A stretch of 25,271 nt of DNA. Source: a virus. The DNA lies in the IMG/VR virus record IMGVR_UViG_3300030102_005405, positions 891 through 26,161 of that record; one strand, 5' to 3'. Within the stretch, counting starts at the first letter, position 1. Each line of letters starts with the position of its first letter. The notes under the pieces were generated by a model. The model made no database searches and had not been told where the DNA came from. It was given only the letters and a program-made list of their open reading frames with translations. This document shows positions 3,683-18,636 of this stretch, one piece after another. A program made the translations under genes and the position numbers.

Positions 3683-4657
3683 TTATTCTTCGTTAAGAAG
3701 ATCAGTGATAGGTTTCACACCCTCATCTTTAGATTCAATTAGATCCTTGAGGTGAGCAGACTGAAACTTCTTACCTGTCGATTTGACAGTGTACCAGGAT
3801 CCACCACGTTCCACGACACCATCACGTTCTAGGTGTGGCAGGAGTCCATAGTAAGGGTTCAGACCTTTATTAAACATAAGTTCAAACTCACACACTTTAA
3901 ATGGCTCGATGAGCTTATTCTTTTTGTTTACGACCTTACCACGAATTCCCGTGGGATTCTCCTTATCGCCTACAACATCAGTTTTCGATGTTTGCATGTT
4001 TACTCCAAGATAGTAATCCAAGGCATTACCACCCGCAGCAGCGGTCCTGGGATCTCCATACATCACACCGACTTTAGTGCGAATCTGATTAACCAAGACC
4101 AGGGCAACATTCTTAGGTCTAAGAACCGGATTGATCTTACGAAGAGCAGCACCAATTGTTTTAGCACGGGTTGCACCTTGCATGTTATTACCCTCATAAC
4201 CCTCAGCATCCATCTCAGCCTTTGAAGGAGAGACTGCTAAACTGTCGTAAAACACGACAATGGGAGTGTCGGAGTCTTCAGTTCGGATCGAGTTGATGAT
4301 CTTCTCAATTGTGTCGAAACACTCTTCGACAGTGGGAGGCGCAGCATAGATAAGCTTCTCAGGGTTAATGCCAAGCGTCACTGCGAACTTAGGGCTGTAT
4401 GCATTCTCAGAGTCGATAATAACCGTGTGGTAGCCCTTACGTTGTGCCTCACGCAGAATGTGAGTTCCAAAAACAGTCTTAGCGGTAGAGGCCTGCCCAA
4501 TAAACTGCGTGATCATACCGATAGGTATGCCACCGTTGTACTTACCAGAGATGACTTTATTCAAAGCGTAGGCTCCGGTAGAGATGAGTTCTGGCGTAAG
4601 CTCTTGCTCAGAGAGCATGGATGCGTTTTTAAGTTTCAATATGATATCGCTGGTCAT
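3683..4657 (-). CDS. uvsX: UvsX/RecA-type recombinase
   Basis: A 324-residue RecA-fold strand-exchange ATPase, expected to load on ssDNA for recombination-dependent replication and repair. Walker A occupies 54-61 as GQASTAKT, with Ala59 where RecA-fold proteins normally have Gly. The catalytic Glu is Glu84 (DSENAYSPKFA aligns with RecA DAEHALDPVYA) and Walker B is VVFYDS ending at Asp138. The NQIRTKVGVMYGDP stretch and AAAGGNALDYY (190-215) match RecA NQIRMKIGVMFGNP and GGNALKFY and cover the DNA-binding loop L2. The C-terminus is acidic (DLLNEE). It lies in the same direction as, but apart from, the SSB/helicase operon. A TATAAT box 5 bases upstream replaces a Shine-Dalgarno sequence. Confidence 0.93.
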   Translation of the reverse strand: MTSDIILKLKNASMLSEQELTPELISTGAYALNKVISGKYNGGIPIGMITQFIGQASTAKTVFGTHILREAQRKGYHTVIIDSENAYSPKFAVTLGINPEKLIYAAPPTVEECFDTIEKIINSIRTEDSDTPIVVFYDSLAVSPSKAEMDAEGYEGNNMQGATRAKTIGAALRKINPVLRPKNVALVLVNQIRTKVGVMYGDPRTAAAGGNALDYYLGVNMQTSKTDVVGDKENPTGIRGKVVNKKNKLIEPFKVCEFELMFNKGLNPYYGLLPHLERDGVVERGGSWYTVKSTGKKFQSAHLKDLIESKDEGVKPITDLLNEE

Positions 4658-4662
4658 GCAAT

Positions 4663-4668
4663 ATTATA
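4663..4668 (-). promoter_or_regulatory. TATAAT box 5 bases before the recombinase gene
   Basis: Minus strand reads CTATAAT, ATTGC, then ATG at 4657. The TAA within the box is the stop of the upstream glycosylase-like gene (Leu-stop, CTA TAA). There is no Shine-Dalgarno and no clear -35. Confidence 0.45.
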
Positions 4669-5086
4669 GCTCTACAGGCCAAAAATACTCGATATTATCT
4701 GGTTCAGTCCAGCCATGCACAGAATAATAAGAAGGATCCTTACGAAGAAGGTTAGAACGATGGCTAGCATGGACTCGATCGTCGCCAATCCAGTCGGGCA
4801 TTTGAATATCATCAGGAAGGTCATAATACTTCATGGTATTGTTGTAGCCACGATCAATCCACTCTTGAATGCAGACATTATGATAGAGCTTAAGAGCAGG
4901 TAGATAGCCACGCCACATAGTGCGAGCAGGGTGATTAGCCCAACCGACCTTAGCACTGGGGTTGGCAGCAAGCTTATTAGTGCTATTCACCAGTTGCATG
5001 GCTTCAACACGTTGCTTACCCAAACGACGGTAATCAAGGGCTTTTACAGAGGATACAAAGTCGGGATATGGAAGGAATGTTTGCAT
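4664..5086 (-). CDS. Pyrimidine-dimer glycosylase / endonuclease V-like protein
   Basis: A 140-residue protein with MQTFLPYPDF at the start, LDYRRLGKQRVEAMQ at 17-31, WANHPARTMWRGY near 49-61 and CIQEWIDRGY near 71-80. This pattern is typical of the MSMEG_6728-like relatives of T4 endonuclease V (Pyr_excise type), which act on damaged DNA at pyrimidine dimers. The family link is from remembered motifs and the enzyme activity is not proven. Its place beside the recombinase suits a repair role. Two upstream signals exist: a TATAAT box 7 bases before the ATG and a TATAAATA 44-51 bases before it. There is no Shine-Dalgarno sequence. Confidence 0.75.
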   Translation of the reverse strand: MQTFLPYPDFVSSVKALDYRRLGKQRVEAMQLVNSTNKLAANPSAKVGWANHPARTMWRGYLPALKLYHNVCIQEWIDRGYNNTMKYYDLPDDIQMPDWIGDDRVHASHRSNLLRKDPSYYSVHGWTEPDNIEYFWPVEL

Positions 5087-5093
5087 GGCCTAA

Positions 5094-5099
5094 ATTATA
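5094..5099 (-). promoter_or_regulatory. TATAAT box 7 bases before the glycosylase-like gene
   Basis: Minus strand reads GGTATAAT, 7 bases, then ATG at 5086, with an extended -10 (TGGTATAAT). A CTGGCA hexamer at 5122-5117, 17 bases upstream, matches 4 of 6 bases of a -35. This copy lies in a true intergenic gap and is the best candidate for a sigma-70-type promoter giving a leaderless transcript. Confidence 0.55.
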
Positions 5100-5129
5100 C
5101 CAATCATTTTCAATTCTGCCAGAACTAAA

Positions 5130-5137
5130 TATTTATA
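5130..5137 (-). promoter_or_regulatory. TATAAATA, identical to the T4 late-promoter core
   Basis: The minus strand reads TATAAATA in the 55-base gap between divergent genes. This octamer is the core recognised by T4 gp55-RNA polymerase. It would start a leftward transcript about 35 bases before the glycosylase-like gene. A single AT-rich octamer can occur by chance; the sigma-like gene at the left edge makes the reading more attractive. Confidence 0.4.
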
Positions 5138-5141
5138 TACC

Positions 5142-5420
5142 ATGGCTATTGTAGATCCTAACCCCAACGAAACGGTGACTAGAGCAGACCTTAACCAACA
5201 ACTGGAGGTTCACGCTAAAACTATTGAGCTTCAAATCTTGCTCTCTCAACAACAAGAGGACATTTTGGAAAAGCTCTCCAACTGTGTTGATGATCACAAA
5301 AAAATGAATAAAGCCTTGGATATCCTAGAGAGAAGGTCTTGGAAGCAAGGCTGGCTTTATTGGGGTATGATCTTCTCTCTTATTACCACCGCCGCAACTT
5401 TAATAACTAAGGCAAGCTAA
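5142..5420 (+). CDS. Membrane-anchored coiled-coil protein
   Basis: A 92-residue protein and the first gene of the only plus-strand unit. Residues about 14-60 form a heptad-like, Gln/Glu/Leu-rich helix (TRADLNQQLEVHAKTIELQI and onward) and residues about 72-90 form one hydrophobic segment (LYWGMIFSLITTAATLI) after a Lys/Arg/Trp junction. It would be a tail-anchored protein with its coiled coil in the cytoplasm, or the reverse. No family was recognised; small tail-anchored coiled-coil proteins are common in phages, and some act in lysis or exclusion. No Shine-Dalgarno is seen: an AT-rich stretch ends just before the ATG. The stop overlaps the next start as TAATG. Confidence 0.65.
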   Translation: MAIVDPNPNETVTRADLNQQLEVHAKTIELQILLSQQQEDILEKLSNCVDDHKKMNKALDILERRSWKQGWLYWGMIFSLITTAATLITKAS

Positions 5421-5584
5421 TGACCGATATCCATAGAGAGCTTCTCGATAAGATCACCACTATTAAAGGTGATGAAAGACCTAACACCTCCTACGAGGAC
5501 ACCGAAACTTACGAGAGGACACTAGCGGATGCCTCAAGCATGCTAGAGGATGAGATCAGAAAACTTAAAAGTAGAGTAGTTTAG
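5420..5584 (+). CDS. 54-residue acidic small protein
   Basis: Begins MTDIHRELLDKITTIKGDE and ends EDEIRKLKSRVV, a highly charged and mostly helical small protein. No family was recognised. It starts in the TAATG overlap with the preceding gene's stop, so it is probably translated by coupling as a partner of that gene. It ends 8 bases before the convergent MazG-like gene, leaving no room for a terminator. Confidence 0.55.
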   Translation: MTDIHRELLDKITTIKGDERPNTSYEDTETYERTLADASSMLEDEIRKLKSRVV

Positions 5585-5592
5585 TGAAGGCT

Positions 5593-5961
5593 TTAGCAGC
5601 CGTCGTCTTCGTGATCGTTGTTTACGTGGCGGATACCGCCTCCGCTCTTAAATCCTTCTGGGTATCTCGCCGTTAGCTTGTCTACATTTGCCTGAGCAAC
5701 TGACTCTAGGTCAATGCTTAAGTTAGTAGCTGCCATAGCAACATAGTATAGGATATCCCCTAGTTCTTTCTTGGCATGATCCTTATCTAGCATCTTACCA
5801 TGGAACTCACTCTTCTTGATGAGTTCACAATACTCACCTGCTTCACCAGCAATACCCAAGGCCCAATTCATAGCAGCCTGTGAGTAAGTAAGATCAGGGT
5901 TTGCGGTTCTCCTGCAAGCTTGTTGAAACTCATTAAATCTTATACCTCTACGCGGATCCAT
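5593..5961 (-). CDS. MazG-like nucleotide pyrophosphohydrolase
   Basis: A 122-residue all-alpha NTP pyrophosphohydrolase of the MazG/dUTPase-2 superfamily, which hydrolyses (d)NTPs to NMP and pyrophosphate. The metal-binding signature is present: Glu40, Glu43 and Glu46 in GEAGEYCELIKK, then Glu66 and Asp69 in KKELGDILYYVAMAA. The C-terminus is His/Asp-rich (RHVNNDHEDDGC). In phages such enzymes are thought to clean nucleotide pools or lower host alarmone levels; the substrate here is unknown. GGAG lies 7 bases before the ATG, and the gene overlaps the end of the upstream WecB-type gene, making it the last gene of the leftward glycan block. Confidence 0.85.
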   Translation of the reverse strand: MDPRRGIRFNEFQQACRRTANPDLTYSQAAMNWALGIAGEAGEYCELIKKSEFHGKMLDKDHAKKELGDILYYVAMAATNLSIDLESVAQANVDKLTARYPEGFKSGGGIRHVNNDHEDDGC

Positions 5962-6957
5962 CTAATAACTCCTTTATTTTAGTTGATGCCTGCCCATCTC
6001 CAAATGGGCACTTTCTTTCTATTTGGTAGTTGTCTATCATGTTCAGAACACTCCTTGAAAGATCTCCTGGACTTTTACATAGAACAACATGACCAGACAT
6101 CATAGCTTCTTGTCGTTCTGTATTCTTCCTACAAACTATACATTTTTTATTGAAGAATGAAGCCTCCTCCTGAATACCTCCGCTGTCTGTGATGCAGAAT
6201 TTACACTCAACTAAGAGTTTTAATAAATCATCATGACTCAACGGGTCCACCACGTTTACATGGTCCAGAAGATGCTTGTGCTCTAGCACTCTGGGGTTTG
6301 GATGGATAGGGAGAATAAACTCTAAATCATCCTTGTAAATTTTAGCAATATTGTCCAAAGCTAAGAACCAATCACGCATTATGGGATGATTCTCCCTTCT
6401 GTGTAAAGTTACAAGAACTTTATTGCCATAGTCGGTGGATTTCTTGTACTTTAATAAGTTATCTAAAACTGTATTGCCTACGACATATGACTCGCCAGCA
6501 ACATAGTCAGTTTCTAGATTTCTCAAAGATAGCTCTGTTGGGCATAGATTAATATCTGCTATTCTAGAAATCATTTGCCTATACCCCTCTTCAGGGTAAG
6601 GATTTTTTAAATCTCTTGTCCTAAGGCCAGCTTCTAAATGTATAATTTTTAGATTAAGATTAAAGGAGGCTAAAGCACATGCAAATGCTGTGGCTGTATC
6701 ACCCTGCACCAATACATAATCAAAAAGGTTTGAGTCGGAGTATGGAAATTGCTCTAAGCAATCTTGTATTACTGAGTTCAACCTTAAACCACCAGTGAGT
6801 GAAGTTGAACTCAGTTCTGGATAAATTCTGTAATCGAAATTAACTTCTTTTAACAGGTCTGGATGTTGACCTGTGAATAGAAGTTTGCAATCAAGTTTAT
6901 CAACAAGTGGCTTTACTTTGAGCCACTCTGGTCTAGTTCCAAAGCATACGAGGATCA

Positions 6958-6958
<1 letters not shown>
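5948..6958 (-). CDS. wecB: UDP-N-acetylglucosamine 2-epimerase (WecB type)
   Basis: A 336-residue GT-B-fold non-hydrolysing epimerase interconverting UDP-GlcNAc and UDP-ManNAc. GTRPE is at 7-11, QGDT with Asp87 at 85-88, HLEAGLRT at 107-114 with Glu109, PEEGYRQ near 122-128, HRREN at 186-190, and DSGGIQEEA at 258-266. These correspond to the E. coli residues Asp95, Glu117, Glu131 and His213. It is slightly shorter than the usual 370-380 residues. The start overlaps the preceding stop by one base (TAATG). It would supply ManNAc for the glycan made by the island. Confidence 0.93.
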
Positions 6959-8161
<1,203 letters not shown>

Positions 8162-8165
<4 letters not shown>

Positions 8166-8902
8166 ATCGAAACCACTCCTCTCTTTGACACAACCTTTGT
8201 GGCACACTCATTAGCGTAGACAATTGACTTGGATATGTCGTTAGTCTCAGTAAACTTAAAGGCTAAAGCTGCCATGAAAGTGTCACCGGCTCCTGATTGG
8301 TCCTTCACCTCAACCTCATCGACAGGGAAGACTTGCCCTTGAAAAGTACAGCCTTGCTTGCCAGTTGTGTAGATTATCTTATCAATTAAACCCTCTAGAG
8401 AGTTGATGCTCTCTTTAGAGGCTTCAAACTCTACACTGTTTATCTTTATGAATTTGGCCTTACTAAAATGATCGTTGATGATCTTCTTAGTATCTATGAA
8501 CACGTTATCATGTCTAGCACAGATCTCTGCTATGGCTTCGTAAGTTAGCAAGCCTTTGCAGTAATCAGATACAATAACACAATCAAAATCTTCAAAGCTT
8601 ATGCTCTTGATAAAGTCTATGGGGAAAGGTTTAGTCTCCTTATCCCCAACGTCTAAGCGCATTAGTAGGTGATTAGTCTTATCATCTACATACCTAGTTT
8701 TAGTAATAGGATTAGGTTGTGAGAAGAAAGTAACATCGACACCAAGAGATTCTAGATTGGTGACAACATTACCAGCCATACCAGAGTTTGAAGTTTTTCG
8801 AGATGGGACTAGAATGGGCGCGGGAGCAGCAGGATCTAGTCTAGTGGCAGAACCGTATTGAAATACGTCCTGGCATTCTTCACCTAGGACAAGGAATCTC
8901 AT
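8162..8902 (-). CDS. PfkB/ribokinase-family sugar kinase, HldE-kinase-like
   Basis: A 246-residue carbohydrate kinase resembling the N-terminal kinase domain of HldE (RfaE), which phosphorylates heptose 7-phosphate. TRLDPAAPAPI at 20-30 corresponds to HldE SRISPEAPVPV, SGMAGNVVTNLESLG (40-54) matches GGAANVAMNIASLG, and the PfkB signature DQSGAGDTFMAAL (201-213) carries the catalytic base Asp207. It is shorter than the 310-330 residues of HldE kinase domains, mainly in the lid and middle. No nucleotidyltransferase domain is fused or seen nearby. The ATG at 8902 is preferred over TTG at 8908 because it overlaps the upstream stop as ATGA. Confidence 0.82.
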
Positions 8903-9294
8903 TTCCAACTAATCTCCCAATCCTTAAACTCAGCAGCCAGACAATCAATCTTATAGTCCTTCCTACCACCAGCAATCTCTTGGATCTTGTTTTTAGCTGT
9001 GTTCCGAATACCATTGATGCCATGAGTGAGTTCAAGATTGCCCTCACCACTACCCTTACGAACTTCCGACTCGTTATGCCAAATGTGAAGATTCATTTGA
9101 GCTAAGACAACAATCGCTCTAATGACTTCTCCAGTTATCTCCTTACCATTCAATTCAAGTTGAATGTCGTGAACAATATCTTCGATCTCTTTAGCGTATT
9201 CATCTTTATGCTCAGAAATAAAAACTTCTTTGAGTTGAGAGATAGAGAGTCTATCGATCAGTTCCGAAAGCGTGGGCAAGTATTTTCTATCCAT
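8899..9294 (-). CDS. Conserved hypothetical protein in glycan island
   Basis: A 131-residue, mainly helical and acidic protein beginning MDRKYLPTLSELIDRLSISQ. The phrase LSELIDRLSISQLKEVF resembles a segment of DUF4254-like proteins found in some LPS gene clusters, but this is a faint similarity. His residues occur in LHIWHNES and LTHGING. No function can be given; its position between the kinase and the fucose synthase-like gene suggests a glycan role. The ATG at 9294 has AGGA close upstream and overlaps the preceding stop by 8 bases; an upstream TTG at 9312 is less likely. Confidence 0.6.
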   Translation of the reverse strand: MDRKYLPTLSELIDRLSISQLKEVFISEHKDEYAKEIEDIVHDIQLELNGKEITGEVIRAIVVLAQMNLHIWHNESEVRKGSGEGNLELTHGINGIRNTAKNKIQEIAGGRKDYKIDCLAAEFKDWEISWK

Positions 9295-10198
9295 TGTTCC
9301 TGTACCATTCAATTGTCTTTTTCAGTCCTTCCTCTAAAGAAGTGTCCGGTGTATACCCAAACTCTTCTTTAAATTTACTCATGTCGTAGTATCTTCTGGG
9401 TTGGCCATCTGGTTTAGACGCGTCCCAAACTATATCACCCTTGAAGCCTGTCAATCTTTTCAAGAGGTCAACCAGTTCGGTAATTGTAGTTTCTACGCCT
9501 GTTCCTAAATTATAGGGTCCAACACCAGCCTTATTATAGGCAGCGTCAACGATTGCTTTAGCAGTATTTTCAACATAAATAAACTCTCTGGAGGATTTAC
9601 CACTCCCCCAAATGACCACTTCAGTGTGCCCACTCTCTACTGCCTCAACAAATTTCCTAATTAACGCAGGAACTACGTGAGAGGATTTCAAATCAAAGTT
9701 ATCATGAGGTCCATATAAATTAGCAGGAAGAAGAATAGTAGAATCAAATCCATACTGTTCTTTGTAAGCGTTTGCCTGAACGACTATGTTCTTTTTAGCT
9801 AAAGAATAAGCGTAAGAGTTTTCGTCAGGATACCCGTCCCAAAACTTATCTTCATTGAAGGGGGATTCTAAATGTTTTGGGTAACCGCAACCCGCCGCGA
9901 GACCAACATATTTATCTACAGTCCCCGACTTGTAAGAATAGTGCAAGGTGTTGATACATTGCAATGCGTTCTGATAGAAAAACTCTGCGGGTCTAGTTTT
10001 ATTAGCTAATATACCACCTACCAACCCGGCGCAGTGGATGACCTTAGCATACCCCTTAATAAGGTCCTCTACTACCCTAGGATCTGTTAGATCTGCTTCT
10101 TTATGAGTAGGTGCATCGAACTCCACACTACGCTTCTTTAATTCTTCGCAGACTGATTTTCCTACGAACCCATGACCGCCAGTAACTAAAACTTTCAT
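9287..10198 (-). CDS. GDP-L-fucose synthase-like epimerase/reductase
   Basis: A 303-residue extended SDR resembling Fcl/WcaG, which converts GDP-4-keto-6-deoxy-mannose to GDP-L-fucose with NADPH. GGHGFVG is at 7-13; CAGLVGGILANKTRPAEFFY (56-75), FWDGYPDENSYAYSLAKK with Tyr131 and Lys135, LYGPHDNFDL, SHVVPALIRKF and KPDGQPRRYYD follow the Fcl order. In the active-site loop AAGCGYPK the Cys (Cys104) is kept but Gly103 stands where E. coli Fcl has Ser107. A related C3/C5 epimerase with another substrate is possible. The neighbouring GT11 fucosyltransferase supports fucose. ATGA overlap with the upstream gene. Confidence 0.85.
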   Translation of the reverse strand: MKVLVTGGHGFVGKSVCEELKKRSVEFDAPTHKEADLTDPRVVEDLIKGYAKVIHCAGLVGGILANKTRPAEFFYQNALQCINTLHYSYKSGTVDKYVGLAAGCGYPKHLESPFNEDKFWDGYPDENSYAYSLAKKNIVVQANAYKEQYGFDSTILLPANLYGPHDNFDLKSSHVVPALIRKFVEAVESGHTEVVIWGSGKSSREFIYVENTAKAIVDAAYNKAGVGPYNLGTGVETTITELVDLLKRLTGFKGDIVWDASKPDGQPRRYYDMSKFKEEFGYTPDTSLEEGLKKTIEWYRNNG

Positions 10199-11112
10199 AT
10201 TGAACTCCTAAACCAATTATAGGTCTTACGCAAACCTTCGGGTAAGCCAGTTTTAGCTTCCCAATTAATAATACTTTTAGCTAATGAATAATCACAGGAC
10301 TGTGTTTTTATGTTAGCTATTTCTTCTGTGGTGTGTATTCTAAGATCCTTTCCTGCTGCCTTCAAAACTTCTGAAGCAATTTCGTACACTGTGTGTAACT
10401 TACTCGAACCTATATTCATTGGAGGCAAGCTTTTATTAGCTGATCTTAGTTGATCTAAAGTTTTCAACGTCGCTTCAATCGCATCTTCAATGAAGCAGTA
10501 AGTTCTTGATTCTTCTCCATTGGTGAGAACGCCATACTCGGTTTTAGGGTGATCTAAGGCTTTCTTGCAAAGGACAGGAATCAAGGAACCTCTTGAAAGA
10601 TCTGAGTCTTGCCCAGGACCATAAATGCCTACGAACCTCAAGCTAGCGTTTAGCATTCCCGAACTTCTCACCAGTTCTTCTGATAAAAGCTTGGCAGTAC
10701 CATAAGTAATCGGTGGCCTCTTAGTCCAAGCCTCATCTTCAAAGATGGCATCATTTGAAAGACCATACACATGGGCAGAGCTAGCATTTATAAAGTATCT
10801 AACCCCACTCCGTCTAGAGGTTTCAATAACATTCTTATCAATTGAAGTATTATCCGATAGCACGTTATACTCAAAGTCTCGATAATAACCCATGCTACCG
10901 ACTCTGGAGGCTAGGTGGATTACAGCATCGACTCCTTGAAAGTGAGAATCAAGGTCATCCTCAATGAGATCACACTTAATGAAAGTAGCTCCATCAGGTA
11001 TGATCTTGCCTCTCGAAAGATCATCAAGAACTATTACCTCATGATCTTTAATTAAAGCATTAGCGAGATGACTCCCTATAAACCCACAGCCTCCAGTGAT
11101 TAGAACTCTCAT
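10195..11112 (-). CDS. Extended SDR, GDP-mannose 3,5-epimerase-like
   Basis: A 305-residue NAD-dependent sugar epimerase/dehydratase. GGCGFIG is at 7-13, strand 2 ends VIVLDDLSRG, HLASRVGSMGY lies at 66-76, and the catalytic residues are in NASSAHVY (109-116) and YGTAK (Tyr137, Lys141). The stretch SSAHVYGLSNDAIFEDEAW followed by RPPITYG resembles GDP-mannose 3,5-epimerase, although UDP-glucose 4-epimerase relatives are similar. It could prepare the substrate for the adjacent fucose synthase-like enzyme or make a different GDP-sugar. ATGA overlap with the upstream gene. Confidence 0.8.
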   Translation of the reverse strand: MRVLITGGCGFIGSHLANALIKDHEVIVLDDLSRGKIIPDGATFIKCDLIEDDLDSHFQGVDAVIHLASRVGSMGYYRDFEYNVLSDNTSIDKNVIETSRRSGVRYFINASSAHVYGLSNDAIFEDEAWTKRPPITYGTAKLLSEELVRSSGMLNASLRFVGIYGPGQDSDLSRGSLIPVLCKKALDHPKTEYGVLTNGEESRTYCFIEDAIEATLKTLDQLRSANKSLPPMNIGSSKLHTVYEIASEVLKAAGKDLRIHTTEEIANIKTQSCDYSLAKSIINWEAKTGLPEGLRKTYNWFRSSI

Positions 11113-11786
11113 GCCACCCTCGAAAAGTCTAACTGTGTAGCAATGTCCTTATATGCAGTATTGACATAAGTCTGATCTATAGCGTTAGTTTCTTCTATAA
11201 GTTCGAAACCCATACTTTCTAAATAGTCTTGAGTTTCCTTCTTTTCAGGATAATACTCATACTCATTCTCATAACATGTGGCCTCCACTTCTAGGTATAC
11301 AACTTTTTTTAAGTAATCTCCTGCATTCTGCAATATTTTTAAATCATTACCTTGTGTATCTGTCTTTAAATGTTCGATGTAGCTAAATCTATCCCAGGGA
11401 AATCTCTTTAAAAACTCTACAAATGGAATGAACATGAATGATGTTACCTGTACGGGGTCAAAGGTGTTTGGTTTATACATACTACTTCTACCACAGTCTT
11501 GGCCACAAATATACATGTCTTTTACAGATCCTTTTTCAGCATCATCCAACCCACATCTAAGCAATGTATACCTATTAGGATCGACACCTCTCAAAGGGTC
11601 TAGATTTGTTTGAGGCTCAAAACAAAAAACATGTCTATCTTTTAGTTTGTCTATCCATAGTCTAGCATTCGGAGCACAGTGAGATAACCCCACATCAATT
11701 TTAACATTAGATGCATACTCAGGGACAATAACCTTACCCTCTTCATCTAAGATAGGGTCTAGCAAACTTTTTAAAATATCATCCAT
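11109..11786 (-). CDS. FkbM-family methyltransferase
   Basis: A 225-residue SAM-dependent methyltransferase fold. Motif I is IDVGLSHCAPN (30-40), in a slightly altered form; the acidic end of strand 2 is FEPQ (56-59); and the FkbM hallmark HLKTDTQGNDLKIL (about 139-152) corresponds to the usual IKIDVEGxExxVL. FkbM enzymes O-methylate sugars and small molecules. It has eight Cys residues, more than its neighbours. The start overlaps the preceding stop by 8 bases. It probably methylates a sugar of the glycan; the position is unknown. Confidence 0.85.
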   Translation of the reverse strand: MDDILKSLLDPILDEEGKVIVPEYASNVKIDVGLSHCAPNARLWIDKLKDRHVFCFEPQTNLDPLRGVDPNRYTLLRCGLDDAEKGSVKDMYICGQDCGRSSMYKPNTFDPVQVTSFMFIPFVEFLKRFPWDRFSYIEHLKTDTQGNDLKILQNAGDYLKKVVYLEVEATCYENEYEYYPEKKETQDYLESMGFELIEETNAIDQTYVNTAYKDIATQLDFSRVA

Positions 11787-12699
11787 GTTTAGAGTCCCAC
11801 TTCATTTTATTAAATAGATTTCTTGATGTGTATTGCTTTACCTGATCCTTAGCAGCCTTTACGATAGGCAGGTACTTATCATAATTATCTCTAATATCTT
11901 GAATCCTAGCGTGTAGCTCCTCTTGATTAGAAAAATAAAGGAAGTGCTTGTCTGAAGTAAACCAATTTTCTACAACATTATAGCCATCCCTGTAAAGTAG
12001 CATTAGCGTGCCACAAGCAGCAGCCTCAACCATTCTAGTTTTCATTTGAGGCACCTCACTAGAGAATAAAGCTTCCGACCCTCCTTTAGAGACATACTTC
12101 TTATACTGGTCTGCATGTTGCAAGTGGCCTGCTTTAGGGAACACCAAGTTCAAGCCGACTGAGCATCTTGATTTAGCCAGAAGTTTCCACTTTTCTTGGG
12201 TTGTCACCCCGAAGTCAGTAATAAGTTCTGAGAAAGCTCCATTTGCTATACTACAAAACCTATAATTAAAATTGGACAGGGCGTTTAATAAAACGCTGTA
12301 CTTTGGACTATGTATCTGACCATAGTAAATGGCATCATAAACCTTTTCTTCTTGCACGTCTAGACATTCCTCTGGGACGGGGAAGCATACGGCAGTCCCT
12401 TTAATTCCATTATTAGATAAGATATCAGATGTGTAAGGGCAGATTGTGTATACCCCATCAAAATACTTAAAGGTCTCTACTATATCAGGGCCTGAGTAAA
12501 AAGCCGTGGGTGAGGCAGTGTCTAAGAAGAATTTTTTCTTGTAATTTCTATACTCTCTCTTAAGGTCTTCATTAAAAGCTGAATTCCACCCCCAGAACAA
12601 TACACTGTCTGCATCGCTAGGTTCTGAGAATTTATCGAACCCGAGATGTTTAACTATGCAGTCTGGGTATTCCCCGCCCTCTAAATGCACAACTTTCAT
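11779..12699 (-). CDS. Glycosyltransferase, GT-B fold (CgeB/GT1-2-like)
   Basis: A 306-residue protein with an N-terminal variable domain and a C-terminal nucleotide-sugar-binding domain. The motif MKTRMVEAAACGTLMLLYRD (219-238) is the Glu-containing donor-binding region of CgeB-like and GT4-type enzymes; it is followed by FSNQEELHARIQDIRDNYDK, a common C-terminal pattern. Donor and acceptor are unknown. It lies between the two FkbM methyltransferase genes and shares an ATGA overlap with the upstream one, so transfer and methylation may act on the same sugar. Confidence 0.75.
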   Translation of the reverse strand: MKVVHLEGGEYPDCIVKHLGFDKFSEPSDADSVLFWGWNSAFNEDLKREYRNYKKKFFLDTASPTAFYSGPDIVETFKYFDGVYTICPYTSDILSNNGIKGTAVCFPVPEECLDVQEEKVYDAIYYGQIHSPKYSVLLNALSNFNYRFCSIANGAFSELITDFGVTTQEKWKLLAKSRCSVGLNLVFPKAGHLQHADQYKKYVSKGGSEALFSSEVPQMKTRMVEAAACGTLMLLYRDGYNVVENWFTSDKHFLYFSNQEELHARIQDIRDNYDKYLPIVKAAKDQVKQYTSRNLFNKMKWDSKHG

Positions 12700-13397
12700 C
12701 TTGCCCAGAGCATCCCGTAATTAATTCTTCTTAGCACGTCGCTGGTCCTAGTTAATTCATCAATTATATCTTCCTTAGAAAGGTATCTATCAGGCTCCAC
12801 TAGATAAGGATCACCACGATCAGAGAATGTTAACTTCTTAACTTCTTGAGGATTATCATAATAGCCTATGGAACCAAATTCAGTATACCCTAAGTCATTA
12901 AGATGCTCTATACAGTGTATCGCTACATCTAGCATCTCTTCATGCCACTCGAAACAGATGTCCCCTACCTTCTTGGTAAGTCCTTGCAATACTTCTAGCT
13001 CATAGCCTTCGACATCAATCTTGATTACATCTGGCTCTCCGTGAAGCTTTACTAGTCTGTCTAAGGTGATCGTAGGTACATCAAGTGTCATGACCCAACT
13101 GGTTTGCCCAGCAGCAACGTTCTTACTACCTTTTGCAAATCTGGAGTCCTCAATAAACTTTGTAGAGACAGTGCTAATACCTAATTGGTTAGGGTCTACA
13201 TGTAATGTAGCACTTTTACCGTCTGCATCAGCTACGATATAATTTAATAAGGTAAGGTTACTAAATTTATCTACGTTAAACTTTTCGACTATAAGGGTGT
13301 TAGCTTCCAGGCCTACAACTTTACATTCTGGGTATTTTTGGTTACACGCATTAGTAAACTCGCCAAAATTAAAACCAATATCAAAAATTAAATTCAT
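12696..13397 (-). CDS. FkbM-family methyltransferase
   Basis: A 233-residue SAM-dependent methyltransferase. Motif I is FDIGFNFGEFT (5-15), strand 2 ends VVGLEAN, and the FkbM signature DVIKIDVEGYELEVLQGL lies near residues 123-140, followed by FEWHEE. Unlike the FkbM gene at 11109, motif I and the DVEG motif here are canonical. The ATG at 13397 is preferred, giving an ATGA overlap with the upstream fucosyltransferase gene; an ATG four codons earlier has AAGGA directly against it, which is too close. Probably an O-methyltransferase on a glycan sugar. Confidence 0.88.
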   Translation of the reverse strand: MNLIFDIGFNFGEFTNACNQKYPECKVVGLEANTLIVEKFNVDKFSNLTLLNYIVADADGKSATLHVDPNQLGISTVSTKFIEDSRFAKGSKNVAAGQTSWVMTLDVPTITLDRLVKLHGEPDVIKIDVEGYELEVLQGLTKKVGDICFEWHEEMLDVAIHCIEHLNDLGYTEFGSIGYYDNPQEVKKLTFSDRGDPYLVEPDRYLSKEDIIDELTRTSDVLRRINYGMLWAR

Positions 13398-14233
13398 ACT
13401 ACAATCCATTCCTTAGGGTAAAATCCCTCCCTGTGTGTGTAACTGGGGATATCAGGATGATAATGTTTTGGAGCGATAACTCGCCCATCGCTTAAATAAG
13501 CAGCCCACCAACCAAAAGAAGATATGGGACTTATGACATGTTGATCACACGCCATAATCCTACAGAAATCCTGCATGGGTAAGCCTCCCTCGGAGAACAT
13601 GAAATCACCCTTTAAATTCTCTCTTGCCCATTGAATGTCTCTAGAATTATCATCTGTAAATCTAGCGCCACCAGTGAACACCAGAAATCTAGTATTCTCT
13701 AGTTTTTCTTTAGCTTTCTCAAAGTATGAGTGCCAAAAGCCACCCCTATCATACATCCTATTTAACTCTTCGGAAGGATTAGAGCCGTCAGTGTTGTCTC
13801 CACGACGAAGATGAAGGCTTACAATCGGCCTGTCATCGATCCTCAGGGCATTGATATAACTCTCAGCCTTTTTTACAAACTCAGTCTTTGGGGTAAGTTC
13901 CGACTTTATCTCTTTCTCAAACCCTTCCCAATACTTTGTGCTTTGAAAATAACCTTTAATAAAAGTCCCATCAGGTATTGAGAAGACGGAAGCATCATAC
14001 TTCATATGATCTTTTTCAAGATATACGTGAGTGGGGGGTTGAAGGTTAGACTCTTGTTTGGAAGTTATATTAAAATTATCAAGGAGGCTCTGCTGTCCAT
14101 GCCACGATTGATCACTAAGCACAGGAAGAACTGCTTCGTAGCCGCATTTAAGAGCAATACCCTTTAGAGCAGCGTATTGAAATAGCTGATTACCTAACCT
14201 GCCATCTTGTCCAATTAGAGGATTAGCAATCAC
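13394..14233 (-). CDS. GT11-type fucosyltransferase
   Basis: A 279-residue protein of glycosyltransferase family 11, which transfers fucose from GDP-fucose, usually as an alpha-1,2 linkage. GRLGNQLFQYAALKG (11-25) is the family N-terminal motif, HLRRGD (141-146) is the GDP-fucose-binding motif, and ISSFGWWAAYL near 237-247 is the third conserved block. The start is GTG at 14233, overlapping the upstream stop as GTGA; no ATG is available and the family motif starts at residue 11. It is the natural partner of the GDP-fucose synthase-like gene 3 kb downstream in the same unit. Confidence 0.9.
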   Translation of the reverse strand: MIANPLIGQDGRLGNQLFQYAALKGIALKCGYEAVLPVLSDQSWHGQQSLLDNFNITSKQESNLQPPTHVYLEKDHMKYDASVFSIPDGTFIKGYFQSTKYWEGFEKEIKSELTPKTEFVKKAESYINALRIDDRPIVSLHLRRGDNTDGSNPSEELNRMYDRGGFWHSYFEKAKEKLENTRFLVFTGGARFTDDNSRDIQWARENLKGDFMFSEGGLPMQDFCRIMACDQHVISPISSFGWWAAYLSDGRVIAPKHYHPDIPSYTHREGFYPKEWIVV

Positions 14234-14856
14234 AATACTCTACATCCTTTGAACACCGGGAACTCTGTAAGGTCTCTGTATCCATTGTTTTCTGCAAGGT
14301 CATCTACATGCTCTGGGTAGTTTTGCATCAATGAGAGGCCATGTGCGGCTTGCTGAGGGGTCATATACATGTTCCACCCAAGTGTTTCAATGCTGTCGTC
14401 CTTATAGTTGACCTCTCCACGACCCTCATAGCGAGCTTTCTTAAGCCATTCAACCATCTTATAGTTGTCCGTAAGAATCATGCCTCCCTTTCCAATAGAG
14501 AGCAGTTTCTTGATGTGGAACGATAAACACATGACAGTGCCAGGGATATACATATCCGAGGTAAATCTCTTAGCAGAGTCATAGATAGGGTACGGCTTTA
14601 ACTGGTATATGCCCTTCCAATCTCTGTCCTCAAATACGACTTCACCGCCAGCGTGCATTATGGACATTGGCACTGAAAGATATGTTCTCTTTGGAATCGT
14701 AACCTCTTTAGCTCTGTAATACTTACAGGCTAAAAACAAGGCGTTAGTGCAACTATCCACAGAAACTGCAAATGGGGCGCCTGTGTATTCTGCAACCTCC
14801 TCCTCAAACATCTGAACAATCTTGTAGGGATTGTGTCTTATACTCTTATGCGTCAT
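14230..14856 (-). CDS. Compact DegT/DnrJ-type sugar aminotransferase
   Basis: A 208-residue PLP-dependent enzyme of the DegT/DnrJ/EryC1 family, which aminates nucleotide keto-sugars. FEEEVAEYTGAPFAVSVDS (17-35) is the usual start of the fold, VTIPKRTYLS follows, Asp93 in YDSAKRF aligns with the Asp that contacts the PLP nitrogen, and SFHIKKLLSIGKGG (112-125) contains the probable PLP lysine Lys117. Normal members have 360-400 residues. This one lacks much of the segment before the PLP Asp and most of the C-terminal domain, but the frame is clean with ATGA-type overlaps at both ends, so it looks like a reduced gene rather than a decayed one. Confidence 0.8.
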   Translation of the reverse strand: MTHKSIRHNPYKIVQMFEEEVAEYTGAPFAVSVDSCTNALFLACKYYRAKEVTIPKRTYLSVPMSIMHAGGEVVFEDRDWKGIYQLKPYPIYDSAKRFTSDMYIPGTVMCLSFHIKKLLSIGKGGMILTDNYKMVEWLKKARYEGRGEVNYKDDSIETLGWNMYMTPQQAAHGLSLMQNYPEHVDDLAENNGYRDLTEFPVFKGCRVL

Positions 14857-15221
14857 ATTACTTCATATGGAATCTTACACTTCTCAAACAGCTTTCGACT
14901 GGCAGTGTTATGCTTGAGTATCTTACCAGTGGCTTCAGGATATAGTTTCTTAATCTCACTCAGCATGAAATAACCCACGCCATTCCCAGCAAATGATGGA
15001 TGTGTGCAGATCCTAATATCATTCTCTATAACACCAACGTAACCAACAGGCTCACCGTATAATAGACACACCCTGTAATCTTGAGCGTGTTTTTCCATAT
15101 AATTTACTTGATCCTCCGCTGTGATCTCAGATTGATTGAGAAACCACTTTAAATTTTTAGGATGCATTCTTAAATTTCTGATAAACTCATAATGAGTTTC
15201 AGTTACCTCGACTAACTCCAT
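14853..15221 (-). CDS. GNAT-family N-acetyltransferase
   Basis: A 122-residue GNAT protein that would transfer an acetyl group from acetyl-CoA. CTHPSFAGNGVGYFMLSEIK (about 73-92) is motif A with the pyrophosphate-binding loop, and HNTASRKLFEKC near 105-116 matches the motif B Asn/Leu/Phe pattern. Residues 1-35 form the usual N-terminal helices. It lies immediately after the DegT-type aminotransferase on the genome and overlaps it, so it probably acetylates the amino group that enzyme makes. AGGAGG lies 4 bases before the ATG, one of the best ribosome binding sites in the window. Confidence 0.85.
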   Translation of the reverse strand: MELVEVTETHYEFIRNLRMHPKNLKWFLNQSEITAEDQVNYMEKHAQDYRVCLLYGEPVGYVGVIENDIRICTHPSFAGNGVGYFMLSEIKKLYPEATGKILKHNTASRKLFEKCKIPYEVI

Positions 15222-16009
15222 GTATCCTCCTGAACACCATACTTATTATGCTGGCCCAATACCCAGTGCTGTAAGTATGCTCTACTATACTGCCAACCCT
15301 CAAGCCCCATCCAAGGGTTCAGAGAGCTTCCAATATCGATGTAGGTATTCTCAGGGTGCTTGAAGAAACAATCTTTTACAATGAAGTTAGTAAGTGTGGA
15401 CGCTGATATTAAGAATACAACATCCTCTACATCGTTGGCTTCAATCCACTCATTAATCTGAGAGGGTAAGTCGTAGTTGTTAACAAAGCAATTACTGCCA
15501 ATTCTAAAGTCTTTTATGATGTTAAGATCGAGCTTGCTTAGATCCGCCTTTTCATTAGCCACAAATACGATTTTTTTCTTTTGAAGAAGTGGCATACACT
15601 CCTCTATGAATCTTGGATAATTTGCGTTAATAAATAGGTTAGAGAAAGTTAAATGCTCGTCATCCGTTGTAAAAGAAGTTTGATACTTCAGAACATCATC
15701 CTCTAAGCATATTGCAGTGTCCTCATTGCAGGAAAGACCTTTAAAGTAATTCTTCTTATTAGCAGACAGGCAATCTTTCAAACGATTACTGATATGCTCA
15801 TGTAGTTCTGGGTTATAGTTCTTTTCTTCCTCCTTTGTGTATCTCCCAGGCCCAGACCTTTTGCCCGTAACAAATCTATTTTCTTCCAGGATCAATTCTT
15901 CATTCTTAAGAATAAATATTTCACCATCTGAGAATCTAGAGAATCCAAAGTGCTCACCTTCACTGAGCATTTTCAAAAACTTATAAAACTCTTCTTTGTA
16001 ATTCTTCAT
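15212..16009 (-). CDS. GT-D-fold glycosyltransferase
   Basis: A 265-residue protein. GFSRFSDGEIFIL at 22-34 matches the R-x-x-D-G-E motif of GT-D-type transferases (DUF1792-like), where the acidic residues serve catalysis, and a C-terminal NTYIDIGSSLNPWMG block matches the second conserved region. A short transmembrane segment is not seen. The family transfers glucose-type sugars in bacterial adhesin glycosylation; the donor here is unknown. The ATG shares an ATGA overlap with the upstream GT-A gene. Confidence 0.8.
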   Translation of the reverse strand: MKNYKEEFYKFLKMLSEGEHFGFSRFSDGEIFILKNEELILEENRFVTGKRSGPGRYTKEEEKNYNPELHEHISNRLKDCLSANKKNYFKGLSCNEDTAICLEDDVLKYQTSFTTDDEHLTFSNLFINANYPRFIEECMPLLQKKKIVFVANEKADLSKLDLNIIKDFRIGSNCFVNNYDLPSQINEWIEANDVEDVVFLISASTLTNFIVKDCFFKHPENTYIDIGSSLNPWMGLEGWQYSRAYLQHWVLGQHNKYGVQEDTWS

Positions 16010-16731
16010 CGTGTAAGGACAGGTTTATAATCTCTTTGCATGTAATAGCTTATGATATCATCTCTTTCTTTATAGAACTGAGGTATGGCTTTAAGAGATC
16101 CGTTTGAAGAAGCCTTTGAATCGTTGCCATACTCCCACGCTTTCAGTGAACTCCACATGCTTTGATCCTCAGGATCGTGAGGAGGGCAGAAAGTTTTGAT
16201 ACCGTTACTAATGCTAGCTTGAAAAGACAATTGCATGTCTTCTCCATTCTCGTGTGTTGGAGGGACTTCAACCCAAAGATTGTTAAGAGTCTTTCTCTCC
16301 ATAAACCAAGCATGACCGACTAAGTCTACTTCAACTGTTTCTTTAGTTGGTTGGGGCCACCCTGCTCTAATATGTTGAATGTACATTGGAGACTGCAATA
16401 TACATCCCGCTCCGCCAAGTATGCACTCGCCTTTTTCTTGCATGACGGACAGACAGTTCTTAAACCAGTTCTCTCCTGGAATCGTATCATCATCAAAGAA
16501 GGCCACATACTTGGTTTGAGCTAATAACCCAAGAGCGAACCTACCGTGATACTTAAAATTCCTGGATGAGTCTACTACAACATCCACGGACGTTTCGACA
16601 GGCCAAGCACAGTCATTCCTCCAAAGCCATATTTCTTTTGGAGCGATCGTCTGAGACCTTATAGCCTTTACCTGCTCCTCAAGGTATTCGGGACGTTTAT
16701 AGCCGTTGAGTATTACAGTAATTTCTTCCAT
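16006..16731 (-). CDS. GT-A-fold glycosyltransferase (GT2-like)
   Basis: A 241-residue family-2-like glycosyltransferase. The N-terminal ITVILNGYKRPEYLEEQVKA (4-23) begins the nucleotide-binding half, the metal-binding FFDDDTIPGENW motif gives Asp80-Asp82, and PPTHENGEDMQLSFQ near 158-172 holds the catalytic ED. The donor is unknown. It overlaps the upstream GT-B gene by 19 bases, with GAGG almost touching the ATG. Confidence 0.85.
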   Translation of the reverse strand: MEEITVILNGYKRPEYLEEQVKAIRSQTIAPKEIWLWRNDCAWPVETSVDVVVDSSRNFKYHGRFALGLLAQTKYVAFFDDDTIPGENWFKNCLSVMQEKGECILGGAGCILQSPMYIQHIRAGWPQPTKETVEVDLVGHAWFMERKTLNNLWVEVPPTHENGEDMQLSFQASISNGIKTFCPPHDPEDQSMWSSLKAWEYGNDSKASSNGSLKAIPQFYKERDDIISYYMQRDYKPVLTR

Positions 16732-17483
16732 GCCTCATACACCTTATCATCATCCCAATACTCAGCTTGAGTATCGTTACCTTCATGTCCATGATAGTTT
16801 ACCTTAGCATATTCGCACTCAGGTTTTATAAGATTGAATGTTTCAAGCTCAGGAGAATGGTAAACATCCGTAACAGTGTCATAAACAGTCTGCATATCGC
16901 TTGCTACGCCTCTGTAGGAAACTTTATCCCCCAGAAGAGGCACCACCTTATTTACGAAATACCTAGCATCTGTAACCGCCCCATAGAGTCTTACATCTGT
17001 ATGTCCTTTCTCAAGTGCTCTCTGTATCGATAGATGTGTTCTTTTATTAGAATCAATACTACCTAACACACCGGCAGTGGTCACTTTAAATTTATTATCT
17101 TTAGGCCTGTATTTTTGAACAACGTTAGGTATTACATGCCCATCAACTGCCTGCCATTTCTTTTGAAACTCCGAAACAAAATGAACATCATCATAAATCA
17201 TACCATTCTGATTTTTAATTGGGAAGACTCGGGTCTCATGGCAGGACAGAATTAATTTAGCAACGTTGGGTCGCTTTTCAAATTTCATATAGTGATAGAT
17301 TACTACATCGTCTTCCTTAAAAGAAACATTGTTAATGTCATCCCAATTACAAGTAACTCCTTCCCATTTATTTGGAGCATAAAGACAAGCCTCATCTCCA
17401 CGTTCGTTAAATAGATTAACCAGATTGTTTAAAGCCACGGTCGAACCACCGGGACCTCCCCATGTAGTAATAATTTTAATCAT
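16713..17483 (-). CDS. GT-B-fold glycosyltransferase (GT4-like), short
   Basis: A 256-residue protein with a Gly-rich N-terminal loop, ITTWGGPGGSTVALNNL (4-20), typical of GT4 acceptor domains, CHETRVFPI near 81-89, and GVLGSIDSNKRTHLSIQRAL opening a second Rossmann domain. The C-terminal SPELETFNLIKPECEYAK holds the E-x7-E donor motif. At 256 residues it is about 100 shorter than usual GT4 enzymes but keeps both halves. It overlaps the upstream GT4 gene by 8 bases. Confidence 0.75.
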   Translation of the reverse strand: MIKIITTWGGPGGSTVALNNLVNLFNERGDEACLYAPNKWEGVTCNWDDINNVSFKEDDVVIYHYMKFEKRPNVAKLILSCHETRVFPIKNQNGMIYDDVHFVSEFQKKWQAVDGHVIPNVVQKYRPKDNKFKVTTAGVLGSIDSNKRTHLSIQRALEKGHTDVRLYGAVTDARYFVNKVVPLLGDKVSYRGVASDMQTVYDTVTDVYHSPELETFNLIKPECEYAKVNYHGHEGNDTQAEYWDDDKVYEAWKKLL

Positions 17484-18636
17484 CTAATTTGTATCCTGTG
17501 TTTTGCATGGCGGTTGCATAAAGCTCAAGACGTGCTGCGCTTTGTTTGCGACCATCAAATAAGTCTTTAGTATTTTCATGAAGATTTTTACCGAGTTCAA
17601 TTCTATGCTTTTTATCCTTGCAAAGCTTAGTAAGAATCTTAACCCACTCGCTTCTAGGAGCATCAGGCTCTATGAGATATCCAGTTTCTCCATTAATAAT
17701 AGTTTCTGAATAGCAACCCACGTTACTGGCGACTAGAGGAATTTTATAACGAGAGCACTCAGCAACCTTAATATCGGATTTGGAGTCATTAAATTCATTC
17801 ATTCTTAATGGAGCTATGGCGACATCCATATCAGCATAGTAGCGACCATAAGCATCAGGAGGTAACGCATAGTGAACGTTATAGTTCTTTTGCCCTTTAA
17901 ACCCCTTAAGAAGTTGCGACATATATTCAGGCCACACCTTCTCTTCCCATGTTCCTTTCTTTTTAGGATCTGGTGGTGGGTGTCCGTAGAAGTTCCATTG
18001 CACGTTTTCTCGCCCTACTTTTTGATTAACAAGGTGAGGAATAGCATTAAACACCTGCACATCGCCACGGTGATGGATTCCAGCCGCGTAACCGATACGA
18101 GTGTATTTAGCCTTAGACTTTGGATAATTCCAAGCATCAAGCGAGTAGTCTAAGACATTCTTAATTACGGCCATGCATTTACCTATGTATGGCTTAATTC
18201 TTTCCGCGAATTTGACCTGTGTAACGGTAACTAGGTCTGCATTGAAATAGCAAAATTTAGTTATCTCATCCAGCTTGTTGTTCTTATAAGTTTCATATAA
18301 GTGGTGCTCCTCGTACAAACCAGTCAGGAGATCATCAGTATCAAAATGCACGAACTTACCCAACTTCTTGGCTACACCTACAACGCGAGCCGTGTAGGGA
18401 CCTCCATACTTAAGTATGTTTGCTACGAAGACAATGTCAGCCCAATTCATGTCTGTTAGCTTGTCTTCGGGAGGTGCATAATTCTTTTCAGGGTCCACCT
18501 CTAGTGGGTTATCTGAGTATCTAATTTCAACTCTATCAGGAAACTCTTCTCCCATCATCTTCATCGGAGAAAGCTGTCTGTAGTAGCTGCACCCTCCGTG
18601 GTTTGCATAGACAACAAGAATCTTCAATTTACGCAT
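17476..18636 (-). CDS. GT4-family glycosyltransferase
   Basis: A 386-residue GT-B enzyme. The N-terminal VVYANHGGCSYYRQLSP (8-24) is the acceptor-side loop of phage and bacterial GT4 proteins, a central HFDTDDLL follows, and the donor half has DVAIAPLRMNEFNDSKSDIK (271-290) then VAECSRYKIPLVASNVG (291-307), with Lys287 and Glu293 in the conserved positions. Sugar and acceptor are unknown. It is the first gene of the leftward glycan block, sitting just after the terminator. Its ATG has no Shine-Dalgarno but a TATTAT box 6 bases upstream. Confidence 0.88.
   Translation of the reverse strand: MRKLKILVVYANHGGCSYYRQLSPMKMMGEEFPDRVEIRYSDNPLEVDPEKNYAPPEDKLTDMNWADIVFVANILKYGGPYTARVVGVAKKLGKFVHFDTDDLLTGLYEEHHLYETYKNNKLDEITKFCYFNADLVTVTQVKFAERIKPYIGKCMAVIKNVLDYSLDAWNYPKSKAKYTRIGYAAGIHHRGDVQVFNAIPHLVNQKVGRENVQWNFYGHPPPDPKKKGTWEEKVWPEYMSQLLKGFKGQKNYNVHYALPPDAYGRYYADMDVAIAPLRMNEFNDSKSDIKVAECSRYKIPLVASNVGCYSETIINGETGYLIEPDAPRSEWVKILTKLCKDKKHRIELGKNLHENTKDLFDGRKQSAARLELYATAMQNTGYKLDD

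Follow-up and report, generated by a model that had tools for sequence, protein, structure and literature searches.

According to the available part of one source (PMC3556154), holins are hard to find by sequence, and those of class III have one membrane span, with the N-terminus inside and the C-terminus outside; the available part of a second source describes RIII of phage T4 as a cytoplasmic antiholin (PMC8385771). Two T4 proteins thereby offer a comparison for the small gene pair, ORF1 and ORF2, that is the subject of this report: holin T, of class III, has the same topology as that inferred for ORF1, and RIII, being cytoplasmic, has a role like that proposed for ORF2. Holin T carries a large domain outside the membrane, whereas the helix of ORF1 would lie inside and few residues follow its span. 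Furthermore, no significant match to a holin family was obtained for ORF1 (four family members searched against Pfam, five against PHROGs).

The XhlA-type 'hemolysin' of PBSX-like prophages (Pfam family PF10779) provides another comparison. XhlA-type proteins are about 70-90 aa long, consist of a helix followed by a C-terminal span and work together with a partner in lysis; ORF1 is like them in size and layout. PF10779 was not matched by any of four ORF1 proteins, and the sole lysis-like match of ORF1 is to phrog_1193 'hemolysin', at E 0.037 in one of five members (L040). Two further proteins are of interest through relatives of genes that occupy the place of the pair in other contigs. The first is the T7 gene 17.5 holin, at whose position a relative of one such occupant (the L114 type) is found; it has two spans according to its record note, against one predicted in ORF1, which is not found at that position. 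The second is gp44 of Rhodobacter phage RcZahn, a 'membrane protein' of a lysis cassette that is related to another occupant of the slot (in L107); it is a multi-span protein and not a relative of ORF1.

The locus and its gene pair

The DNA analysed here, referred to as the window, comprises 25,271 bases out of a 26,161-base virus record, and its products include UvsX, gp32-like, MazG-like, Clp/AAA and pyrimidine-dimer-glycosylase family proteins. When non-overlapping ORFs of at least 50 aa were picked mechanically, 33 of the 37 obtained lay on the minus strand and four on the plus strand. Two of these four (273-521 and 1042-1347) overlap minus-strand ORFs and are without support here, and ORF1 and ORF2 are the sole supported rightward genes of the window, as an earlier reading of the sequence alone (the sequence-only reading) had proposed. 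The coordinates given there are exact, as are the lengths of 92 and 54 residues and the TAATG junction, at which the A of the ORF2 ATG is the last base of the ORF1 TAA, an overlap of one base (Table 1). Positions 5948-18636 hold a long leftward run of sugar-nucleotide, epimerase, methyl- and glycosyltransferase-like genes (assigned by eye), the content of which varies among relatives.

Table 1. Features of the gene pair and its surroundings (positions in the window)
Feature	Position	Strand	Basis
uvsX	3683..4657	-	PF00154 E 1.3e-44, phrog_97 E 3.8e-64
Pyrimidine-dimer-glycosylase family gene	4664..5086	-	PF03013 E 9.7e-21
Sigma-70-like promoter, CTGGCA-17-TATAAT, TG before second hexamer, back to back with the late-type motif	5094..5122	-	
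CTAAATA, T4-late-type promoter motif, 17 nt before ORF1 start	5125..5131	+	HTAAATA in 31/31 loci
ORF1, 92 aa, with a near-invariant N-terminal block, a long helix (predicted) and a membrane span at the C-terminus	5142..5420	+	31 loci, pN/pS, model
Predicted single membrane span, ORF1 codons 70-88, opens with WKQGW.WG block	5349..5405	+	hydropathy 1.39, conservation
ORF2, 54 aa, soluble helical hairpin	5420..5584	+	31/31 loci, pN/pS 0.17, model
mazG-like gene, convergent with ORF2	5593..5961	-	PF03819 E 1.6e-12

ORF1 was found at 31 loci, on 29 IMG/VR contigs and on two contigs of one MAG labelled Altibacter; these do not represent 31 independent events, because many are close relatives of one another. 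In all 31, ORF2 follows directly after ORF1 (in L041 it extends past the end of the sequence stretch), and the pair lies on the strand opposite to its neighbours uvsX, the glycosylase gene and mazG. One side is flanked by mazG in 30 of the 31 loci, and the other, again in 30, by uvsX and/or the glycosylase gene, the exceptions being stretches that end there (L041 and L034). The glycosylase gene was not found in six loci, in which the pair and uvsX are still there. A profile search with ORF1 recovered one copy in each of 16 of 17 records, the exception being the record of L117. The pair therefore co-occurs in one and the same slot in all loci and is not scattered, and the second gene, proposed as a possible partner of the first, is conserved along with it, with identity falling to 22-28% in distant members. 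Neither protein has a match among 50,697 phage records at E 1 and 5. The spacing between ORF2 and mazG, small or nil in most loci, is about 0.37 kb in two near-identical ones (L022:8443-8810 and L062:4911-5277), where it is filled by other sequence.

Both ORFs are short, and mechanical ORF lists contain many shadows, which would be in keeping with chance ORFs on the antisense strand. Both frames are, however, under purifying selection: across nine gap-free loci, pN/pS in frame is 0.11 for ORF1 and 0.17 for ORF2, whereas the two remaining sense frames of each ORF give 0.97-3.1; on the antisense side one frame per ORF gives 0.23-0.30 and the remaining frames at least 1.1. Given this selection, the co-occurrence of the two genes in 31 of 31 loci and the conserved motif upstream, an origin by chance is hardly credible.

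Predicted structure of the two proteins

The start of ORF1 is almost invariant in the family alignment (VTRADLNQQLE.H.K.IELQ), and a further near-invariant block, R.WKQ.WL.WG.IFS, opens its single C-terminal span. AlphaFold2 models the protein as one helix, residues 14-91 (mean pLDDT 81.7, pTM 0.40). The sequence-only reading had described a long coiled coil with one membrane span at its end. The long helix stands, whereas its heptad periodicity is weak, one test failing and one being borderline: in the former, hydrophobic residues fall on heptad positions no more regularly than in shuffles (2996 of 5000 reach the same score, and 4672 of 5000 reach that of a rough family consensus), and in the latter, which uses the hydrophobic moment at 102.9 degrees, 95 of 2000 shuffles reach the value of residues 14-66 and 26 of 2000 that of residues 40-66. 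The span is likewise predicted, from residue 70, and is modest, with a best 19-residue hydropathy of 1.39 (1.42-1.64 in three relatives), since 15 of 90 other small genes of three relatives (60-160 aa) also score at least 1.35. With 92 aa and a span of this position and modest score, ORF1 is nevertheless of holin size and span number.

To judge from the charges that precede the span, the N-terminus of ORF1 would lie inside, and the near-invariant block at this end points to a specific partner, beyond the needs of a simple pore. ORF2 is modelled as two helices, residues 3-17 and 25-53, and its second half is amphipathic (moment at 98.2 degrees equalled by 23 of 2000 shuffles). A match of ORF1 to DUF386 (E 9e-4; score 19.7 bits, cut-off 26.5) covers the helix alone and was rejected as a helix cross-match; in a PDB profile search, the best matches were helical proteins at E 0.055 or above.

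A late-type promoter motif and the phage lineage

The available part of PMC2984593 gives the late promoter of cyanophage S-PM2 as NATAAATA and that of T4 as TATAAATA. The gene pair has a TATAAATA-type promoter element close upstream, as in a T4-type late transcription unit: all 31 loci carry HTAAATA at a distance of 17-27 nt before ORF1. In three relatives, HTAAATA precedes 12 of 236 genes, compared with 2-6 of 236 for five control patterns. Three of these 12 genes are ORF1 itself and two, which may be chance occurrences, lie in the sugar-gene region; the other seven (assigned partly by eye) either belong to or adjoin the structural cluster, or precede an opposite-strand gene of 305 aa. A gene of 298-305 aa with a TAAATA-type motif upstream (G001 79673-80569, in L050/L051, and L055:842-1759) is the second one that faces against most of the genome in G001, a 91-kb contig of a relative.

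The sigma-70-like site listed in Table 1 is placed back to back with the motif, so that this short gap may accommodate both an early and a late promoter; two such sites were found in the stretch, compared with 1.0 expected in shuffles, and TTATACCA is present in most of the upstream stretches inspected. Within positions 5089-5142, the leftward early-type and the rightward late-type promoter-like sites nearly touch. With respect to the factor that would read the late motif, a 200-aa protein of G001 (76876-77478; L050:16876-17478) has a Sigma70_r2 match at E 4.1e-4, sub-threshold against the curated cut-off, and showed no similarity to T4 gp55 by BLASTP, PHROGs being without a gp55 family. We regard it as a candidate late sigma factor, by which a gp55-type factor is weakly indicated.

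The pair belongs to a lineage of the T4 superfamily. The gp23-like capsid protein of G001 is less than 60% identical to all 2473 phage records that it matched (27.9-32.9% in the best 25 of these), which points to a T4-superfamily lineage that has no close isolate among those phage records. The label of the MAG, Altibacter, together with the link between a Far-T4-like phage and Bacteroidetes made in the available part of PMC7198788, hints at flavobacteria as hosts, with the caveat that phage contigs can be mis-binned. The available portion of the main text of the Far-T4 genome paper (PMC4360716) does not mention lysis, holin, endolysin, uvsX, mazG or 'late promoter'.

From the motif we infer that the unit is transcribed late. 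This bears on the functions considered in the sequence-only reading, namely host takeover, exclusion and lysis control: a late-type motif makes host takeover less likely and, to a lesser degree, exclusion as well. As a late exclusion or host-surface function, ORF1 would be a helix anchored in the membrane and blocking either the entry of DNA or a receptor. A small membrane protein encoded by an isolated, exchangeable unit would be suited to such a task, and exchange would be expected in an arms race. However, the motif is of late type in 31 of 31 loci, whereas imm and sp, which serve exclusion in T4, are early genes, and both ends of ORF1 are very conserved instead of variable. We therefore consider exclusion unlikely.

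Replacement of the pair by other membrane proteins

For a denominator independent of ORF1, searches were made with the neighbour gene h72 and with UvsX. The h72 search gave nine further contigs of the clade without ORF1, among which L107 and L114 alone span the uvsX-mazG interval; L117 (102,677 bases) has no mazG match beside uvsX and no ORF1 anywhere, and the remaining six stop too soon to show the interval. The UvsX search gave at least 80 loci, 15 of which are more distant relatives (UvsX about 40-61% identical). In the 14 of these that were inspected (L127 was left out), no convincing antisense membrane unit was seen; their minus-strand ORFs, some with hydrophobic stretches, overlap plus-strand genes. 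Loci L146-L152 were covered by a tblastn scan alone, and L153-L197 were left out.

Four contigs (L107, L114, L121 and L145) have the uvsX-mazG interval of the clade without ORF1 and carry small opposite-strand membrane proteins in its place. The slot of L114 and L121 holds a 91-aa helix with a C-terminal span, that of L107 two proteins, one of 145 aa with multiple spans and one of 72 aa with an N-terminal span, and that of L145 a 78-aa relative of the latter with a match to phrog_2658 'hol-like chemotaxis' (E 0.0027). Their spans score 1.97-2.28, and values of at least 1.9 are reached by three of 90 small genes. HTAAATA is found upstream of three of the four replacement units, L121 having CTAGATA. 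No second occupant kind was found on the same record, in searches that had no internal positive control.

A recognisable lysis cassette contains a relative of one of these kinds, namely RcZahn gp44, which is matched by the L107 protein (29% identity, E 3e-7). The gp44 gene is followed by genes for a muramidase (PF11860, E 1.4e-47) and for an Rz-like spanin (phrog_214, E 8.1e-5). An L114-type protein is encoded in L201, a T7-like contig, between T7-type tail-fibre and small-terminase genes, which is the slot of the T7 holin. The link of the L114 type to lysis is this position in one contig; two relatives, in L203 and L204, are instead encoded between T4-type terminase and portal genes (called by Pfam in L204 and by like gene order in L203). 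Among annotated phages, L114-type relatives occur in two near-identical records, at E 1e-3 and beside a terminase gene, and for the copies of L201 and L204 no relatives were found there. Homology between ORF1 and the L114-type protein was considered and is not supported (hhalign probability 0.65%, E 0.088).

Exchange among unrelated membrane proteins is well known for holins. As the contents of this slot are swapped among unrelated membrane proteins, some of them linked to lysis, a shared task explains them best, although the slot may also gather late membrane genes with unrelated functions.

Such a function could be late morphogenesis, in which ORF1 would anchor head or tail assembly at the inner membrane, with ORF2 as a chaperone and the N-terminal block as the site that binds a structural protein. 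HTAAATA also occurs before genes of the structural cluster (assigned partly by eye), VTRADLNQQLE is extremely conserved, and the position of the L203 and L204 genes between terminase and portal genes would be in line with this reading. T4 encodes gp40, a head-vertex assembly chaperone recorded as 'membrane-associated', next to uvsX, for which reason it was considered as a counterpart. The identity of ORF1 with gp40 was rejected: BLASTP gave E 1.7, which is no similarity, the best hydropathy of gp40 is 0.83, without a span-like stretch, and gp40 is encoded on the same strand as uvsX in T4. Furthermore, the pair lies outside the structural cluster, and one slot occupant is related to a lysis-cassette protein. 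A role in the virion or its assembly is thus possible, if doubtful.

The place beside uvsX, which the slot adjoins wherever a locus extends far enough, would suit a tether that holds the machinery of late replication, recombination or transcription at the membrane. The slot is, however, shared with membrane proteins that are unrelated, a lysis-linked kind among them, and we regard this reading as improbable.

A putative late lysis-control unit

We favour the reading that the pair is a late lysis-control unit, in which ORF1 is a holin or holin component and ORF2 its cytoplasmic partner or antiholin, and put its probability at about one half. It agrees with that one of the functions named in the sequence-only reading to which both the late-type motif and the slot occupants point. 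Phage late factors and RNA polymerase would read rightward from CTAAATA at 5125. The C-terminal span of ORF1 would then insert into the inner membrane, leaving the helix in the cytoplasm, and the accumulating protein would act as a holin or an essential holin component, forming the hole. ORF2 would be translated by coupling and, in contact with ORF1 in the cytoplasm, would most simply serve as an antiholin or timer that sets the moment of lysis.

Endolysin and spanin genes usually, and not obligatorily, lie beside the holin gene. None was found beside the pair, whose neighbours are uvsX, the glycosylase gene and mazG, and a Pfam search of 16 proteins, out of 110 ORFs selected in G001, which is a fragment, gave no lysis domain. 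Also weighing against lysis control are the negative searches of holin families, the modest span of ORF1, its N-terminal block, which points to a specific partner, the unsupported homology to the lysis-linked occupants of the slot and a further holin candidate in the head-gene cluster.

Should lysis control be the function, the pair may even represent a new holin system, an idea that we put forward tentatively and hold to be doubtful. It would combine a tail-anchored, inside-facing helix that leaves almost nothing outside with a co-translated cytoplasmic hairpin that holds it back, and the late promoter, abutting the early promoter of the recombination operon, would make a lysis clock that is started by the end of early transcription itself. 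If lysis control is borne out, the pair is a testable candidate for how an uncultured lineage times the bursting of its host, and tracking a slot with swapped membrane proteins offers a route to lysis genes that are missed by family searches.

Other candidates in related contigs

The holin could instead be a protein of G001 encoded at 31443-31928 (L048:11443-11928), a charged helix of 161 aa with hydrophobic stretches that lies in the head-gene cluster, is conserved in G002 and has a weak match to phrog_1544 (E 0.0011). A secreted-looking protein of 147 aa at the end of the G001 contig was tried as an endolysin and rejected: it has no Pfam or PHROG match, its best PDB match is at E 0.95, and no second copy occurs in the searched sequence; matches were obtained in seven phage records, all unnamed or unannotated. 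In the T4-like contigs L203 (3980-4210) and L204 (3479-3709), a 76-aa helix with a C-terminal span and an LKIKAGIWG motif is a possible holin candidate.
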